A DNA stretch of 43,329 bases from Methanobacteriota archaeon (GTDB lineage: Archaea > Thermoplasmatota > Thermoplasmata > Methanomassiliicoccales > UBA472): NCBI GenBank assembly GCA_029560215.1, contig JAKPZB010000091.1:1-43329 (forward strand). The letters run 5' to 3'. Shown here piece by piece: positions 11,665-24,347 of the stretch; the stretch's first letter is position 1; each line of letters starts with the position of its first letter. The notes under the pieces were generated by a model. It did no database searches. It was not told the DNA's origin and was given only the letters and a program-made list of their open reading frames with translations. The translations under genes and the position numbers were made by a program.

Positions 11665-12393
11665 TCAGATCCCCGCCAGGAACATTATCAGCGCCGTGGA
11701 CAGGGGTATGACCAGATTATCATATTCGCCCGGGGTGTAAAGCTCCACCACCGCCACGTAGGCGCTCAGCCCGACCGCGGTGAGGGCGCTCACCGCCAAC
11801 GGTATCGATCGGGTGCCGTAAAGCCCCTCGGCGAAAAGGAAGTTGTAATAGTTGATAATAAGGAATATCGCCAGGGCCGCGAAGATGAACACCGCGACGG
11901 TCCCTTCCAGGGTCTTGTTGCCGTGTATCTTGCGCCGGCCGAAGGTCTTGCCCACCAGGCCGCCCATGCCGTCTCCGTAGGCCATGCACACGATGCCGAC
12001 GGAGGCGATGACCAGATCGTTGAAGGCGAAGAACGCCAGCAGGGTCCAGGAGATGGCGTAGTAGACCAATCCCAACTTGTGCCCGTCGTAGGAAGCGGTG
12101 GACAGTATCGATCCCTTGAGCTCGCCGACCAGCTTGCTGTCTCCCTCTTCACGTCTCCCTCCGTACCGGGAGAAGATGAGCAGCAAGGGTATGAACGGCG
12201 CGGCGGCCAGGAGGGACATGACATAATTGGTGTCGAACACCCACCAGAACAATGCGATGTTGCCGATCATCACGTGGATGAACTTCCGGTGAAAGGAGTG
12301 ATCTCGAAGGAAGCGGGACTTGGCGGTGATCACCACCATGACGCCCACGTATGCGTAGACCAATATCAGTCCGAGAGCGTCGCCGCCTGTCAA
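11665..12393 (-). CDS. membrane CTP-dependent polyprenol/dolichol/phytol kinase family protein
   Basis: Multi-TM protein with GDGMGGLVGKTFGRRKIHGNKTLEGTVAVF signature of the SEC59/DGK1/VTE5-type family. Confidence 0.75.
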   Translation of the reverse strand: MTGGDALGLILVYAYVGVMVVITAKSRFLRDHSFHRKFIHVMIGNIALFWWVFDTNYVMSLLAAAPFIPLLLIFSRYGGRREEGDSKLVGELKGSILSTASYDGHKLGLVYYAISWTLLAFFAFNDLVIASVGIVCMAYGDGMGGLVGKTFGRRKIHGNKTLEGTVAVFIFAALAIFLIINYYNFLFAEGLYGTRSIPLAVSALTAVGLSAYVAVVELYTPGEYDNLVIPLSTALIMFLAGI

Positions 12394-18128: not shown

Positions 18129-18202
18129 GGGCCTGTAGTGTAGCTTGGATATCACTGAAGCCTCCGGAGCTTCGAACTGGGGTTCGAATCCCCACAGGCC
18201 CG
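18129..18202 (+). tRNA. tRNA-Arg(CCG)
   Basis: Manual cloverleaf: acceptor GGGCCTG/CAGGCCC, anticodon stem GAAGC/GCTTC with loop CTCCGGA (anticodon CCG), T arm TGGGG-TTCGAAT-CCCCA, discriminator G. No intron; CCA not encoded. Confidence 0.93.
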
Positions 18203-18255
18203 CCTTAACTCTTCAATCCAACACCTTCTTATCTATCGATTCTGTTCTCCTGGAC

Positions 18256-19422
18256 ATGCAGCTCACCCCGGAAGAGCAGGCCATGCTGGCCGGCAAGGAA
18301 GGCAAGGCCAAGCGCAAGGCCATGGAGCTATTGGTGGCCTTGGGGGCCATATACGGCGCCGACCGCCTCGTACCCATCACCTCCGCCCACCTCTCCGGAG
18401 TGTCCTACAAGACCATAGGCGAGGGCGGGATCGATTTCCTGGAGGAGATGGCCGCCGACGGAAAGGTGGTCGTGCCCACCACCCTAAACCCCATGGGGAT
18501 GGACGGGGAGCGGTGGAAGGAGATGGGCGTGGACCAGCATTTCGCCGACCGGCAACTGCTCATCATATCGCTCTACGAAAAGATGGGCGTGGAGGTCAAC
18601 TGCACCTGCACCCCCTATCTGCTCACCAACCGGCCGAAGGTGGGGGACCACATCGCCTGGGCGGAATCTTCGGCGCTTTCCTTCGCCAATTCCGTGCTGG
18701 GCGCCCGCACCAACCGGGAAGGTGGCCCGGGAGCCCTGGCCGCGGCCATCACCGGGCGCACCCCCAACTACGGGCTGCATCTGGACCAGAACCGCAGGGC
18801 CACCCACGTGGTGGAGGTGGAAAAGGGGATAACCAAGGACGAGTGGTCCCTGGTCGGGCACGCCGTGGGAAGGAAACTGGGGGCCTGCATACCCTTCTTC
18901 CGCGGGCTCGGCAACGACGTGAACTGCCTCAAATCCCTGGCCGCGGCCATGGCCGCCGCTGGTTCGGTGGCCATGTTCATGGTGGAGAACGCCACCCCGG
19001 AGCAGCCTGATTCGCTCGAGGGGCTGCCGGTGGTCAAGATCACCCGCCAGGACATCGAGGACACCGTCAAGCGGCTGAGAACCGGGACCAAGCCGGACCT
19101 CATCGCCATAGGCTGCCCCCATCTCTCGGAGAGGGAGATGAAGGAGCTGGCCGGTTTCCTCGACGGCAAGAGGAAGAAAGGCGATGTGGAGGTCTGGTTC
19201 TGCACCTCCAAGGGCGTGTGGCTGCGCTGCCCCAAGGAGCGGGCGGTGCTGGAGCGCTTCGGCAAGGTGCTCTGCGACACCTGCATGGTGGTGGCGCCTA
19301 TCGAGGGGAAGCACAAGGTCACCGCCAGCGATTCCGCCAAGGCCTGCGCCTACCTTCCCGGGCTGTGCTCGCAGAAGGTGTATTGCGGTTCCCGGCGCGA
19401 ACTCATGGAGCTGATGCTGTGA
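18256..19422 (+). CDS. aconitase X catalytic (large) subunit, phosphomevalonate dehydratase large subunit-like
   Basis: MQLTPEEQAMLAGKEGKAKRKAMELLVALGAIYGADRLVPITSAHLSGVSYKTIGEGGIDFLEEM; CTCTPYLLTNRPKVGDHIAWAESSALSFANSVLGARTNREGGPGALAAAITGRTPNYGLH. Start after the tRNA, not 18145. Confidence 0.9.
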   Translation: MQLTPEEQAMLAGKEGKAKRKAMELLVALGAIYGADRLVPITSAHLSGVSYKTIGEGGIDFLEEMAADGKVVVPTTLNPMGMDGERWKEMGVDQHFADRQLLIISLYEKMGVEVNCTCTPYLLTNRPKVGDHIAWAESSALSFANSVLGARTNREGGPGALAAAITGRTPNYGLHLDQNRRATHVVEVEKGITKDEWSLVGHAVGRKLGACIPFFRGLGNDVNCLKSLAAAMAAAGSVAMFMVENATPEQPDSLEGLPVVKITRQDIEDTVKRLRTGTKPDLIAIGCPHLSEREMKELAGFLDGKRKKGDVEVWFCTSKGVWLRCPKERAVLERFGKVLCDTCMVVAPIEGKHKVTASDSAKACAYLPGLCSQKVYCGSRRELMELML

Positions 19423-20192
19423 AGCTGAAAGGGCGGGAGATATTCAAGGGAAAGGCGATCGGACGGCTGCTGTTATTGGACGAACCGTTCAGCTTCCTGG
19501 GCGGGGTCGACCCGAAGACCGGGCTGCTGACGGTGGCCTCCGGGCGGGAAGGGGAGAACGTGGAGAACCGTATCCTGGTCTTCCCGTACGGCAAAGGCTC
19601 CACGGTCGGTTCGTACACCATCATGGACCTGAAGAAGAACGGACACCTGCCCGCGGCCATCGTCAACGCCCAGGCGGAGACGATAGTGGCCACCGGGGCG
19701 GTCATGGCCGGAGTGCCGATGATCGACTCCATCGACCTCTCCCTGCTCCGGGACGGCGACCGGGCAGTGGTGATCGGCGACGGATTGGACATGATGGACC
19801 TGGTGGAGAAGAGAGTGGTCACCTGCGTGCTGCGCCGTAAAGGGAAGATGCTGATACTGAAGCGCAGCCAGAAGGTCGGGACCAACAGAGGCAAGTGGGC
19901 CGCGGTGAGCGGCTACATCGAGCGCGGCGAGAGGCCGGAGGAGACCGCCCTGAAGGAGGTGGCCGAGGAGACCGGGATAACCACCGCCCGGCTTGAAGGC
20001 CGGGGAGAGACGCTGCGCATCCGGGACGGAACCTACGTTTGGAGCATCTATCCCTTCCTGTTCGAGGTGGGCGACGAGGAGGTCAAGCTGGACTGGGAGC
20101 ACACCGAGTGCGCCTGGGTGGAGGTCTCGGAGCTACAGGGCTACGACACCGTCCCCGGCTTCCTCAAGGTGCTGGGATCACTGGGACTATAG
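19419..20192 (+). CDS. aconitase X small (swivel) subunit fused to a C-terminal Nudix hydrolase domain
   Basis: GTG start overlaps the large subunit stop (GTGA). DUF126 motif FPYGKGSTVGSYTIMDLKKNGHLPAAIVNAQAETIVATGAVMAGVPMID at about 19419-19809. Nudix box GYIERGERPEETALKEVAEETGI at about 19909-19978. Confidence 0.9.
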   Translation: MKLKGREIFKGKAIGRLLLLDEPFSFLGGVDPKTGLLTVASGREGENVENRILVFPYGKGSTVGSYTIMDLKKNGHLPAAIVNAQAETIVATGAVMAGVPMIDSIDLSLLRDGDRAVVIGDGLDMMDLVEKRVVTCVLRRKGKMLILKRSQKVGTNRGKWAAVSGYIERGERPEETALKEVAEETGITTARLEGRGETLRIRDGTYVWSIYPFLFEVGDEEVKLDWEHTECAWVEVSELQGYDTVPGFLKVLGSLGL

Positions 20193-23100
20193 CGTCCCGT
20201 CCACTTCCTTCTCCAGCAGGTTCAGCTCGTTGGCGTCCAGGGTGGAAGGGTTCAGCACCATCATCATGATGGAGTTGTTTATGGCCACCTGGTCCCTCAG
20301 CGACTGGACGAAGCGCAGCACGGTGAGGAAGTTGTTGTTGGTTATCAGGTACTCCAACCCATCCAGCAGCACCACGCCCTGCCCCTGGGTCAGGAACTGC
20401 TCGAGCGAGTAGTTCAGCTTCTCCAGGTCCTTGGGGCGCAGGCTGTCCTCCTTGCCCACGTTGCTCAGCCAAACGATCGGGGTCTCGCCCAGTTCGTACT
20501 TGCCGCGGATCTTCACCGGGTAGTTGCGGGTGATGCAGAATCCCCGCTTGCCCTTCTTCAACTGTTCCATGAACAGCTCGTACGAGCGGTCGGAACGGTC
20601 GTCCTTGATCAGGTAGCTGTATCCATCCTGCAGTCCCTGGACCTTGGGCGCTTCCGTTTCCTCCTCTACGACCTCCACCCGCAGCGAGGCGCCGCAGGAA
20701 GGGCAGTTCAGGTCCTTGGCGGATACCTCCCGCCCACACTTGGCGCAGGGGGTGCAGCGCTGGAAGCCTCCGTCGGCGATATACCTCAGTATCTCGTCGA
20801 TGGTCTTGCTCCCCAGCCCGGGGACGCTCTTCAGCTCTTCCCGGTCGGCCGCCTGCAGCCGGTCCAATGAATCGTATCCAGCATCGTATAGCATCTCTGC
20901 CTTGAGCTCGTTCATGCGCGGAATGCGCAAGAGGTAAGGCGCCATCTCCGCCTTGTCCATGGTCTTGCCGGTGCCCTCCGGGACGGCCTTGCAGACCTCG
21001 ACGGCGCGGTCGGAGTGGTGCAGCGCCCGGCGCACGTCGGCCTTGGGCAGCTTGGTCATCTCCTCGATCTTGTCCTCGCCCAACTGCTTCAGGTCGGCCT
21101 CGGTGCGAACCCCGGCGTCCACCAGGGCCTCGGCGGCCTTGGCGGTTATCCCGGGTATCTTGGCCAGCTCCTTGATGGAATCCTTCAGGTTCATGGAGGT
21201 GATGCCCATCTCCACTTTCTCCCCCTCGATCTCCCACTTGCCGACCTGGTCGCCGTGGACCTCCATCACCAGTTCCAGGGATTTGGAGCGCACCTCGGAC
21301 ATGATGTGCTGCTTCCACATCTTGATGTATTCCGCCAACTTCGCGTCGGCGCGGACCTCAACCTTGATGAACTCCTCGACGTCCAGCTTCATCTCCTTGC
21401 GGGTCTGCTGGATCCGGCGTATGATCTCCCGGGAGAACCCTTCCGCCTCGATCTCACGGGTGACCTCGAAGTCCAGGTAGAGCTCGCCGCCGCTGAATGT
21501 GGCGGCGTAGACGTCCTTGGGAAGGGAAACGGTGAAGGATACCATGTTCGGCTCGATCTTCACCAGCTGCCCCTCGATCCCCAGGGAATACTCGCCCCGC
21601 TGCATGCTCTCCTTGATCAGTCCGGCCGGCCGGCTCTGCAGCAGCACCGCGATCTTGGAGGCCCATTGCCGATACACCTTCCCGATGGCCATGGGGTTCG
21701 GCACGACGTTGAGAACGGTCTCCGACCACTCCTCGCCGGTGCCCACGTACTCGACCTCCTTGACATTGGCCTGGGACTTGAGAATGTCCTCCAGGGCGCG
21801 CAATGCGATAAGGGTGTCGTTGCTGTCGACCTTGATCACCACCCTTTTCATCGGCCAGCGCAGCTTGACGTTCTTCAGCTGTCTCTCCCGGGTGACCGTC
21901 TCCACGATCTCCTGGACCATGGACATGGCCTTCTCCAGGCGTTCGTCGACCTTGGTCAGGTCGCTGTTGGGCCAGTCCATCATGTGCACCGTCGGCTTGG
22001 AGCCGTCCATGTGCCGGTAGACCTCCTCGGCCAGATGCGGACATATCGGCGCCAGCAGCAGCGTGGTCTCCATTATCGCGTCGTATAGCGTGCGATAGGC
22101 GGCCAGCTTCCCGGCGTCACCCTCCTCGCTCCACATGCGGTCCCTGATCAATCGAACGTACCATCTCGACAGATCGTCCAGTATGTACTCTTCCAAGGCC
22201 CTTCCGGCCTTGTGCAGCTCCAGGGCGTTCACCTGGCGGGTGAACTCGTTCTTGAGCTTCTCGGTGCGGGAGATGAGCCAGATGTCCTCCTGTTTGAGAT
22301 GCGCGCGCACCGCCTCCTTGGTGATGCGCTGCGGCTCGAAGCGGTCGATGGCCATGTAGGTGGTGGCGAAGTTGACCACGTTCCAGAAGACGTTCAAGGT
22401 CTTGCGGGCGTTCTTCACCCCCTCCATCTGGAAGGGGATGTCCTCCCAAGGGGCGGAGGTCTTCAGCAGGTAGAAGCGAAGGGCGTCGGCCCCGTGCTCC
22501 TTGATGACCTTGCCCGGCTCGACCACGTTGCCCTTGCTCTTGGACATGGGCTGGCCTTGGCCGTCCAGCATCCATCCGTGCATCAGCACCGATTCGTATG
22601 GAGCGCGTCCGAAGGCGATCACGCCCGCGGCGAGCTGCGAATAGAACCATCCCCTGGTCTGATCGTGAGCTTCGACGATGAACTTGGCCGGCCAGAGCCG
22701 CTCGAAAGCGTCCCGCCTCTTGGGGAATCCCAGCTGCGCCCACGAGGCCACGGCCGAATCGAACCAAACGTCCAGAACGTCCGGCACCCGGCTCATCTTG
22801 CCCCCGCACTTGGGGCAGACCAGCTTGACGGAGTCTATCCAGGGGCGGTGAAGCTCCATGTCCTCCACGTAGCCTTCGGCTCCCTTGAGCTCGTCGGTCA
22901 TGCCCACCACCCGTATCTCTCCGCAGGAACAGGTCCAGACCGGGATGGGTATGCCCCAGTACCTCTGCCGGGAGATGCACCAGTCGCGGGCGTTCATGGC
23001 CCAGTCGTATTCGCGGGAGGACCCGGCCCAGTCCGGGGTCCAGCGGACCTTCTCGATCTCCTCCAGCATCTGGTTCTTGACCTGGGTGACCCGCAGGAAC

Positions 23101-24347
23101 CACTGGTCGGTGGTTCGGAATAGAACGGGAGATTTACAACGCCAGCAGTGGCCGAAACGGTGTTCGATGGTGCCGCTGAAGAACAAGCGGTCGTTGGCCT
23201 CCAGGTCCTTGAGCAGCTCCGGATTGGCCTTCTTTATGTGCATGCCGACGTACTTGCTTCCCACCAGCGGGGTGTACACCCCGGCCTCGTCGACCGGGCA
23301 GAAGGGCTCGAGCCCGAACTCCTTGCCCAGCTCGAAGTCCTCCGGGCCGTGGCCGGGGGCGATGTGCACCAGTCCGGTGTTGGAGGCCTCCACGTTCTTG
23401 GAGGGAAGGACCTTGTGCAGCCATTTTCCAGTGGCCTGCGCCTGATAGGGGACCATGTCGATGAAGGGGGTTATGTACTCCACTCCGACCAGGTCGTCGC
23501 CCTGGATGGTCTGGAGCACCTCATACTTCTCCCAGCCTCCCAGGTCCTTGATCTCCTCCTCCAGCCCCTTCATGATGATGACCGTGTCGGTGACCCCGAT
23601 GCGCCGGTAGCGCACCTTGACGTATTCGAAATCGGGGTGAGCGGCCACCGCCAGGTTGGCCGGCAACGTCCAGGGAGTGGTGGTCCAGATCAAGAGCGAG
23701 ACCTTGGGGTCGTCCTTCAGTCGGAACTTGACGTAGATCGAAGGGTCCTTCTCGTCCCAATAGTCGATCTCCGCCTCGGCCAGGGCGGTCTCGCAGCGCG
23801 GGCAGCCCGGAAGCACCCGGCTGGCCTTGATCAGAAGTCCTTTGTCGTAAGCGCGCTTGAGCGTCCACCAGGCCGCTTCTATGTAGCCCGGGGCGATGGT
23901 GAGGTACGGTCTATCCCAATCGAACCACACGCCCAGCTCTTTGAAGTCGGCGTTCATCTGCTTCTGGAAGTCCAGGGCGAAGTTCTTGCACGTACCGACG
24001 AAGCGGTCGATGCCGTACTCCTCGATCTCCTTCTTGTTCTTCACGCCTATGGACTTCTCCACCTTGACCTCGATGGGTAGCCCATGCATGTCGTAGCCAG
24101 GAGTATCGCTCACGTTGAACTTCTGCATGCGCTTGAACCGGACGATCATGTCCTTGATGGTCTTGTTCATCGCTGTGCCAAGGTGGATGTATCCAGTGGT
24201 GTAGGGAGGACCGTCCACGAAATAGAAGTCCGGGCCGGAGGCCCTGAGTTCCTTGGTCTTCTTGTACGCGTCGGTCTCCGCCCAAAGGGCCTGCACCGAC
24301 CTTTCCAGCGCGCTAGGGTTATAACTGCCTTGGACCTGCTTTATCAT
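20187..24347 (-). CDS. ileS: isoleucyl-tRNA synthetase with C-terminal HhH, zinc-ribbon and DUF835 extension
   Basis: 1386-aa continuous ORF: class I synthetase with YTTGYIHLGTAMNK (HIGH-like), MSKSKGNVVEPG (KMSKS), C-terminal IleRS end EIEGEKVEMGI, then about 330 additional aa. Confidence 0.95.
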   Translation of the reverse strand: MIKQVQGSYNPSALERSVQALWAETDAYKKTKELRASGPDFYFVDGPPYTTGYIHLGTAMNKTIKDMIVRFKRMQKFNVSDTPGYDMHGLPIEVKVEKSIGVKNKKEIEEYGIDRFVGTCKNFALDFQKQMNADFKELGVWFDWDRPYLTIAPGYIEAAWWTLKRAYDKGLLIKASRVLPGCPRCETALAEAEIDYWDEKDPSIYVKFRLKDDPKVSLLIWTTTPWTLPANLAVAAHPDFEYVKVRYRRIGVTDTVIIMKGLEEEIKDLGGWEKYEVLQTIQGDDLVGVEYITPFIDMVPYQAQATGKWLHKVLPSKNVEASNTGLVHIAPGHGPEDFELGKEFGLEPFCPVDEAGVYTPLVGSKYVGMHIKKANPELLKDLEANDRLFFSGTIEHRFGHCWRCKSPVLFRTTDQWFLRVTQVKNQMLEEIEKVRWTPDWAGSSREYDWAMNARDWCISRQRYWGIPIPVWTCSCGEIRVVGMTDELKGAEGYVEDMELHRPWIDSVKLVCPKCGGKMSRVPDVLDVWFDSAVASWAQLGFPKRRDAFERLWPAKFIVEAHDQTRGWFYSQLAAGVIAFGRAPYESVLMHGWMLDGQGQPMSKSKGNVVEPGKVIKEHGADALRFYLLKTSAPWEDIPFQMEGVKNARKTLNVFWNVVNFATTYMAIDRFEPQRITKEAVRAHLKQEDIWLISRTEKLKNEFTRQVNALELHKAGRALEEYILDDLSRWYVRLIRDRMWSEEGDAGKLAAYRTLYDAIMETTLLLAPICPHLAEEVYRHMDGSKPTVHMMDWPNSDLTKVDERLEKAMSMVQEIVETVTRERQLKNVKLRWPMKRVVIKVDSNDTLIALRALEDILKSQANVKEVEYVGTGEEWSETVLNVVPNPMAIGKVYRQWASKIAVLLQSRPAGLIKESMQRGEYSLGIEGQLVKIEPNMVSFTVSLPKDVYAATFSGGELYLDFEVTREIEAEGFSREIIRRIQQTRKEMKLDVEEFIKVEVRADAKLAEYIKMWKQHIMSEVRSKSLELVMEVHGDQVGKWEIEGEKVEMGITSMNLKDSIKELAKIPGITAKAAEALVDAGVRTEADLKQLGEDKIEEMTKLPKADVRRALHHSDRAVEVCKAVPEGTGKTMDKAEMAPYLLRIPRMNELKAEMLYDAGYDSLDRLQAADREELKSVPGLGSKTIDEILRYIADGGFQRCTPCAKCGREVSAKDLNCPSCGASLRVEVVEEETEAPKVQGLQDGYSYLIKDDRSDRSYELFMEQLKKGKRGFCITRNYPVKIRGKYELGETPIVWLSNVGKEDSLRPKDLEKLNYSLEQFLTQGQGVVLLDGLEYLITNNNFLTVLRFVQSLRDQVAINNSIMMMVLNPSTLDANELNLLEKEVDGTL

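Follow-up and report, generated by a model that had tools for sequence, protein, structure and literature searches.

A small subunit of a phosphomevalonate dehydratase fused to a Nudix domain in Methanomassiliicoccales, and the reciprocal decay of its two halves

We found that one gene of an archaeon in the order Methanomassiliicoccales encodes both the small (swivel) subunit of a phosphomevalonate dehydratase of the aconitase X (AcnX) type and a Nudix domain. The fusion is real and old. It is spread well beyond this genome, the catalytic residues of both halves are conserved, and in various relatives one half or the other has decayed. We infer that both halves are catalytically active. The window, i.e., the whole stretch of DNA analysed, is 43,329 nucleotides long, and its relevant features are as follows.

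18129-18204: tRNA-Arg
18256-19422, plus strand: AcnX large subunit (AcnX-L), phosphomevalonate dehydratase type IIb (PF04412, E 7e-148; T. kodakarensis AcnX-L, 7cnr_A, E 5.2e-98)
19419-19422, plus strand: GTGA shared by the end of the large-subunit gene (its stop) and the beginning of the fusion gene (its start), read directly from the sequence
19419-20192, plus strand: fusion gene (AcnX swivel and Nudix), a stop-free frame of 257 amino acids
19419-19799, plus strand: swivel (small-subunit) domain, residues 1-127 (PF01989, E 5.6e-28; superposition on 7cnr_D)
19590-19613, plus strand: GKGSTVGS motif, residues 58-65, with Ser61, Thr62 and Val63 (by alignment; substrate contacts according to PMC8184944)
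19800-20189, plus strand: Nudix domain, residues 128-257 (PF00293, E 1.1e-15; Z 18.8 to 3n77 and 18.6 to 3grn)
19911-19979, plus strand: Nudix box GYIERGERPEETALKEVAEETGI, residues 165-187, with the metal-type Glu168, Glu180, Glu183 and Glu184 (from the sequence and its conservation)
20187-24347, minus strand: ileS with a C-terminal DUF835 (Pfam), convergent with the fusion gene and a landmark for the locus in related genomes

Two further observations concern other genes. The C-terminal extension of the window's IleRS contains helix-hairpin-helix motifs and DUF835 (PF05763, E 1.9e-34); the IleRS of family f13 (locus L161) also ends in DUF835 and has no helix-hairpin-helix match. At 11668-12393 (minus strand), the window encodes a membrane protein with an HRKFIH motif and no Pfam match, which by eye resembles dolichol/phytol kinase-type proteins.

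The preliminary description of this DNA had a DUF126 swivel domain running directly into a Nudix domain. The frame indeed holds both, each complete and each with its own Pfam match (AcnX_swivel_put over residues 24-102, NUDIX over residues 133-239). Residues 1-127 also match T. kodakarensis TK1248 (7cnr_B) with an E-value of 1.4e-34. Both folds are present in an AlphaFold2 model built with 69 orthologues (mean pLDDT 95.0, pTM 0.83), of which residues 2-127 superpose on 7cnr_D with a Z of 24.3 and an rmsd of 1.0 Å over 126 residues. The final swivel strand (122-125) and the first Nudix strand (129-140) adjoin in the model and therefore leave no space for a flexible linker; the two domains are joined without one. 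Separate translation of the two domains, which had been named as a finding that would refute the proposal, or a frame or assembly artefact, is very improbable. In the window, residues 125 and 126 are both encoded by ATG codons, as separate translation might use. However, no start codon at the swivel/Nudix junction is conserved among relatives, so separate translation of the halves is without support, and both domains lie in the same continuous frame in 58 of the 61 genomes of the order that were searched. Given these 58 relatives and the fact that AlphaFold2 yields both folds, the swivel and Nudix domains are not neighbours by chance.

The predicted dehydratase looks complete, as the active-site residues of both subunits are conserved. 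The gene for the large subunit lies immediately upstream and overlaps the fusion gene by the GTGA that the preliminary description reported. Its three cysteine contexts (TCTPY, GCPH and DTCMVV) and its AESSA motif align with the T. kodakarensis enzyme (TkAcnX), and the Glu129-Ser130 pair and the Lys361/Tyr365 region are kept. The small half keeps Leu27, Ser61, Thr62 and Val63, equivalent to Leu27, Ser62, Thr63 and Val64 of TkAcnX. According to PMC8184944, the substrate contacts of TkAcnX include Ser62, Thr63 and Val64 of the small subunit, and the subunits rotate by about 26 degrees upon substrate binding. Where TkAcnX has Asn53, the window's large subunit has Thr. Since the f18 large subunit likewise has Thr here, we take this to be a natural variant of one phosphate contact among several, and one that would not define the family.

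Known type IIb enzymes, namely PMDh of Aeropyrum pernix and TkAcnX (7CNR/7CNS), are likewise encoded by tandem genes for a large and a small subunit. The Fe-S cysteine contexts and the residues listed above are shared with TkAcnX, from which the window's enzyme differs by its C-terminal Nudix domain and the Thr. A fusion already known in the AcnX family also differs from ours: it joins the swivel and large domains to each other, without Nudix. The earlier assignment to an AcnX-type phosphomevalonate dehydratase thus stands and can be made more specific: the fusion partner is a type IIb small subunit, its Nudix domain has intact catalytic residues, and the combination is kept well beyond the window genome. 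The attached proposal, that the Nudix domain is a candidate for a missing or regulatory function in isoprenoid synthesis, fared less well and is taken up below.

Full-length matches to the fusion occur in about 20 family codes among 300 genomes of the class, and its close named relatives are from Methanomassiliicoccales MAGs. In other lineages of the phylum, swivel and Nudix are separate genes, with the Nudix protein mostly 40-53% identical to the window's domain. The genomes G353 and G358 have the large subunit, the swivel, a coiled-coil ORF and the Nudix clustered as separate genes, an arrangement from which the fusion could arise. A profile built from the Nudix orthologues (A1) sets them well apart: in 80 genomes, whole matches within the orthogroup have E-values of at most 1e-24 and all else is at 2e-15 or worse. 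The lone exception is in G326, where one match is interrupted and its second fragment does not follow this rule. Orthologues are absent from f18, part of f11 and f22 genomes, and swivel-only genomes without the Nudix orthologue are found in f11 and f18. The Nudix tree is built on few columns and leaves many of its forks open. An AU test did not reject one fused clade (p-values of 0.30 and 0.53), which does not show a single origin. A literature search, with subscription journals largely outside its reach, found no description of a swivel-Nudix fusion. Many of the comparison genomes are MAGs, roughly 55-100% complete, in which single absences can be gaps; our argument therefore leans on gene order and on absences that are repeated across genomes.

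The genes next to free-standing Nudix orthologues have no single theme across G342, f46, f35 and G387. In G342 the neighbour is ileS, and by eye we read the others as PurQ-like (f46), PIN-domain ATPase-like (f35) and AsnRS-like (G387). At this locus of G342 (L169, 6495-10125), ileS and the free-standing orthologue are arranged head to head, and the genome has no AcnX-L match. Separately, the fusion gene of G254 (L167, 4664-5451) is broken by a frame change in its Nudix half, reflecting either a sequencing error or an early pseudogene.

The Nudix half is probably an active hydrolase, because each of its four glutamates is found in 99-100 of 101 orthologues. It fits the consensus box GX5EX7REUXEEXGU save for one conservative change, the K in place of R that was pointed out previously. 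This change is normal for the family, in which K is the commonest residue at the position (50/101) and R the second (40/101). As to the type of Nudix protein, none of the curated NCBIfam cut-offs for named equivalogs (MutT, NudI, NudB-type and AdpP/YffH) was reached, all scores being far below; for NudI, the score was 31.6 bits against a cut-off of 95. Among solved structures, NudI (3n77) is the best match by fold, with 3grn, plant NUDX1 (Z 18.0) and type I IDI (1hzt, Z 16.3) scoring lower. Less than 1 Z unit separates the nucleotide hydrolases from plant NUDX1, and we therefore rejected the structure search as a guide to the substrate. The plant enzyme, a geranyl diphosphate hydrolase (6ypb/6ypf), shares the Nudix fold, at 19% identity over the structural alignment.

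By sequence profile, the best solved structure is the MutT-related M. mazei protein Q8PYE2_METMA (3grn; E 2.9e-14), with the nucleoside triphosphatase NudI next (E 1.5e-13). According to its description, the M. mazei protein has moderate activity on Ap3A, Ap4A and Ap5A and none on 8-oxo-dGTP, and its authors doubted that the former is physiological and thought the true substrate still unfound. Unlike the window's Nudix domain, this protein is free-standing and does not have the VSGYIE signature, and its dinucleoside-polyphosphate activity may not carry over. In family f2 (loci L112-L129), N-x-E-N takes the place of the DWEH motif and the Nudix box is intact, which hints at a different Nudix specificity there.

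We looked for AcnX-L in 109 genomes. It is absent from G067 and G078 of family f13, which are 95-97% complete. The locus is otherwise as in the window (rpoE, DUF359, the fusion gene, convergent ileS and fen1); indeed, ileS adjoins most fused loci as well as these. In the f13 fusion gene, Leu27 and the GSTVG motif are gone, and the Nudix half keeps Glu168, Glu180, Glu183 and Glu184 together with Asp225-Trp226-Glu227. A decayed swivel and an intact Nudix are also found in the f14 genomes G068, G089, G125, G183 and G218, again without AcnX-L. (G089 was read directly and in the alignment of 101 Nudix orthologues, and is not a row of the active-site residue alignment.) Families f29, f10 and f20 have an intact, unfused large subunit and swivel elsewhere, in addition to a decayed-swivel-Nudix gene. 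G074, whose genus code is shared with G084, has a lone Nudix gene in which no swivel can be recognised.

According to hhalign, the decayed N-termini remain homologous to the swivel (probability 98, E 2.2e-13). In a Pfam scan, NUDIX passed in 9 of 9 decayed-swivel genes, and PF01989 in the f20 gene only (E 8.7e-12). A structure search with a decayed-swivel model returned a top 50 made up entirely of matches to the Nudix half, and the swivel ancestry of its N-terminus rests on hhalign and gene order. Decay in the reverse direction, with a dead Nudix and an intact swivel, is seen in G116, where PF01989 was matched and NUDIX was not, and on contig C4 of G097. A second copy in G097, on contig C21, keeps the opposite half intact. 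Because either half decays while the other is kept, the fusion most likely represents a dehydratase carrying an autonomous hydrolase, with independent and functionally separable activities.

Genomes that have lost the dehydratase follow a different mevalonate route, to judge from the TIGR01240-type decarboxylase. Among 47 genomes, this enzyme occurs in 27 of the 29 without AcnX-L versus 2 of the 18 with it; the five f22 matches are weak. Both AcnX-L and such a decarboxylase are present in the genomes of G009:C18 and G062:C123. In the 80-genome panel, 37 genomes have both AcnX and the Nudix orthologue, 9 the Nudix only, 14 AcnX only and 20 neither. Shared ancestry and the way in which the panel was chosen inflate the resulting association (odds ratio 5.9, Fisher p 4e-4). 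The substrate and product of the dehydratase are monophosphates, not diphosphates of the kind that Nudix enzymes use.

These data bear on what the Nudix half might do for the pathway. It might cut IPP and DMAPP, or longer prenyl diphosphates, to monophosphates, either as a flux-tuning cycle with isopentenyl phosphate kinase or as a supply of dimethylallyl phosphate to UbiX, for the prenylated FMN that the next enzyme uses as its cofactor. We regard this role as doubtful, yet worth keeping in mind. It would explain the physical fusion to a pathway enzyme and is consistent with plant NUDX1 being among the nearest folds. The dehydratase-less genomes carry type 2 IDI (IDI-2) and thus presumably make IPP. 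UbiX uses dimethylallyl monophosphate (PMC7662398), and unfused dehydratase genes are directly beside UbiX in G074 and G329. However, the nearly universal UbiX is present in genomes that lack the Nudix and missing from G067 and G078 of f13, which retain the Nudix half, and we rejected cofactor supply as a general role on this distribution. Moreover, the Nudix gene of G084 lies outside the dehydratase cluster, and the Nudix-free genomes of f18, f11 and f22 manage without this domain.

It is unlikely that the Nudix domain instead senses a ligand or regulates the dehydratase structurally, being moved as the swivel rotates to close. The missing linker, the rotation reported for the T. kodakarensis subunits and the long persistence of the fusion would suit such a device, but the catalytic glutamates are kept in fused and swivel-decayed proteins alike, and dehydratases free of Nudix exist in the same class. 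A type-I-like IPP isomerase filling a missing pathway step can practically be dismissed. Type I IDI does share the Nudix fold, but 72 of 80 genomes, that of the window among them, have type 2 IDI, and the protein has a hydrolase-type Nudix box. The missing or regulatory activity proposed in the preliminary description is therefore not borne out: IDI-2 is present, genomes without the dehydratase keep the Nudix catalytic residues, and genomes with it have lost the Nudix.

The explanation that we favour, by a slight balance of the evidence, is that the one gene gives one bifunctional polypeptide whose tethered activities would be functionally separable. Its N-terminal half would be a normal swivel subunit, paired with the large subunit encoded upstream. 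The C-terminal half would act autonomously as a Nudix pyrophosphohydrolase of the Mg2+ type, its kin being a free-standing protein of Thermoplasmatota that came to be attached to the swivel gene. For this half, nucleotide-directed housekeeping, e.g., on dinucleoside polyphosphates or NTPs, seems somewhat likelier than a prenyl-diphosphate role or a regulatory one, because its nearest characterised relative is 3grn and because the Nudix is retained after the pathway swap; we draw this weakly. Several findings count against the favoured explanation. The fusion persists in about 20 families, longer than might be expected of a neutral join, and there is the association of AcnX with Nudix, inflated as it is. 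Plant NUDX1 is as close as the nucleotide-directed structures to within 1 Z unit, and the 3grn authors considered the real substrate of their protein still to be found.

There is a small chance that the tethered Nudix cuts a prenyl diphosphate, opposed by isopentenyl phosphate kinase, and so sets isoprenoid flux in these archaea. If so, one polypeptide would both make and drain pathway intermediates. Regardless, the fusion is class-wide and joins a central enzyme of membrane-lipid synthesis to a predicted Nudix hydrolase, and its relatives provide rare natural experiments: the large subunit deleted at the same locus, the swivel decaying in place, and two copies in one genome keeping different halves. 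These relatives make it testable whether gene fusion implies a shared pathway, and they urge caution in assigning function from fusion alone.
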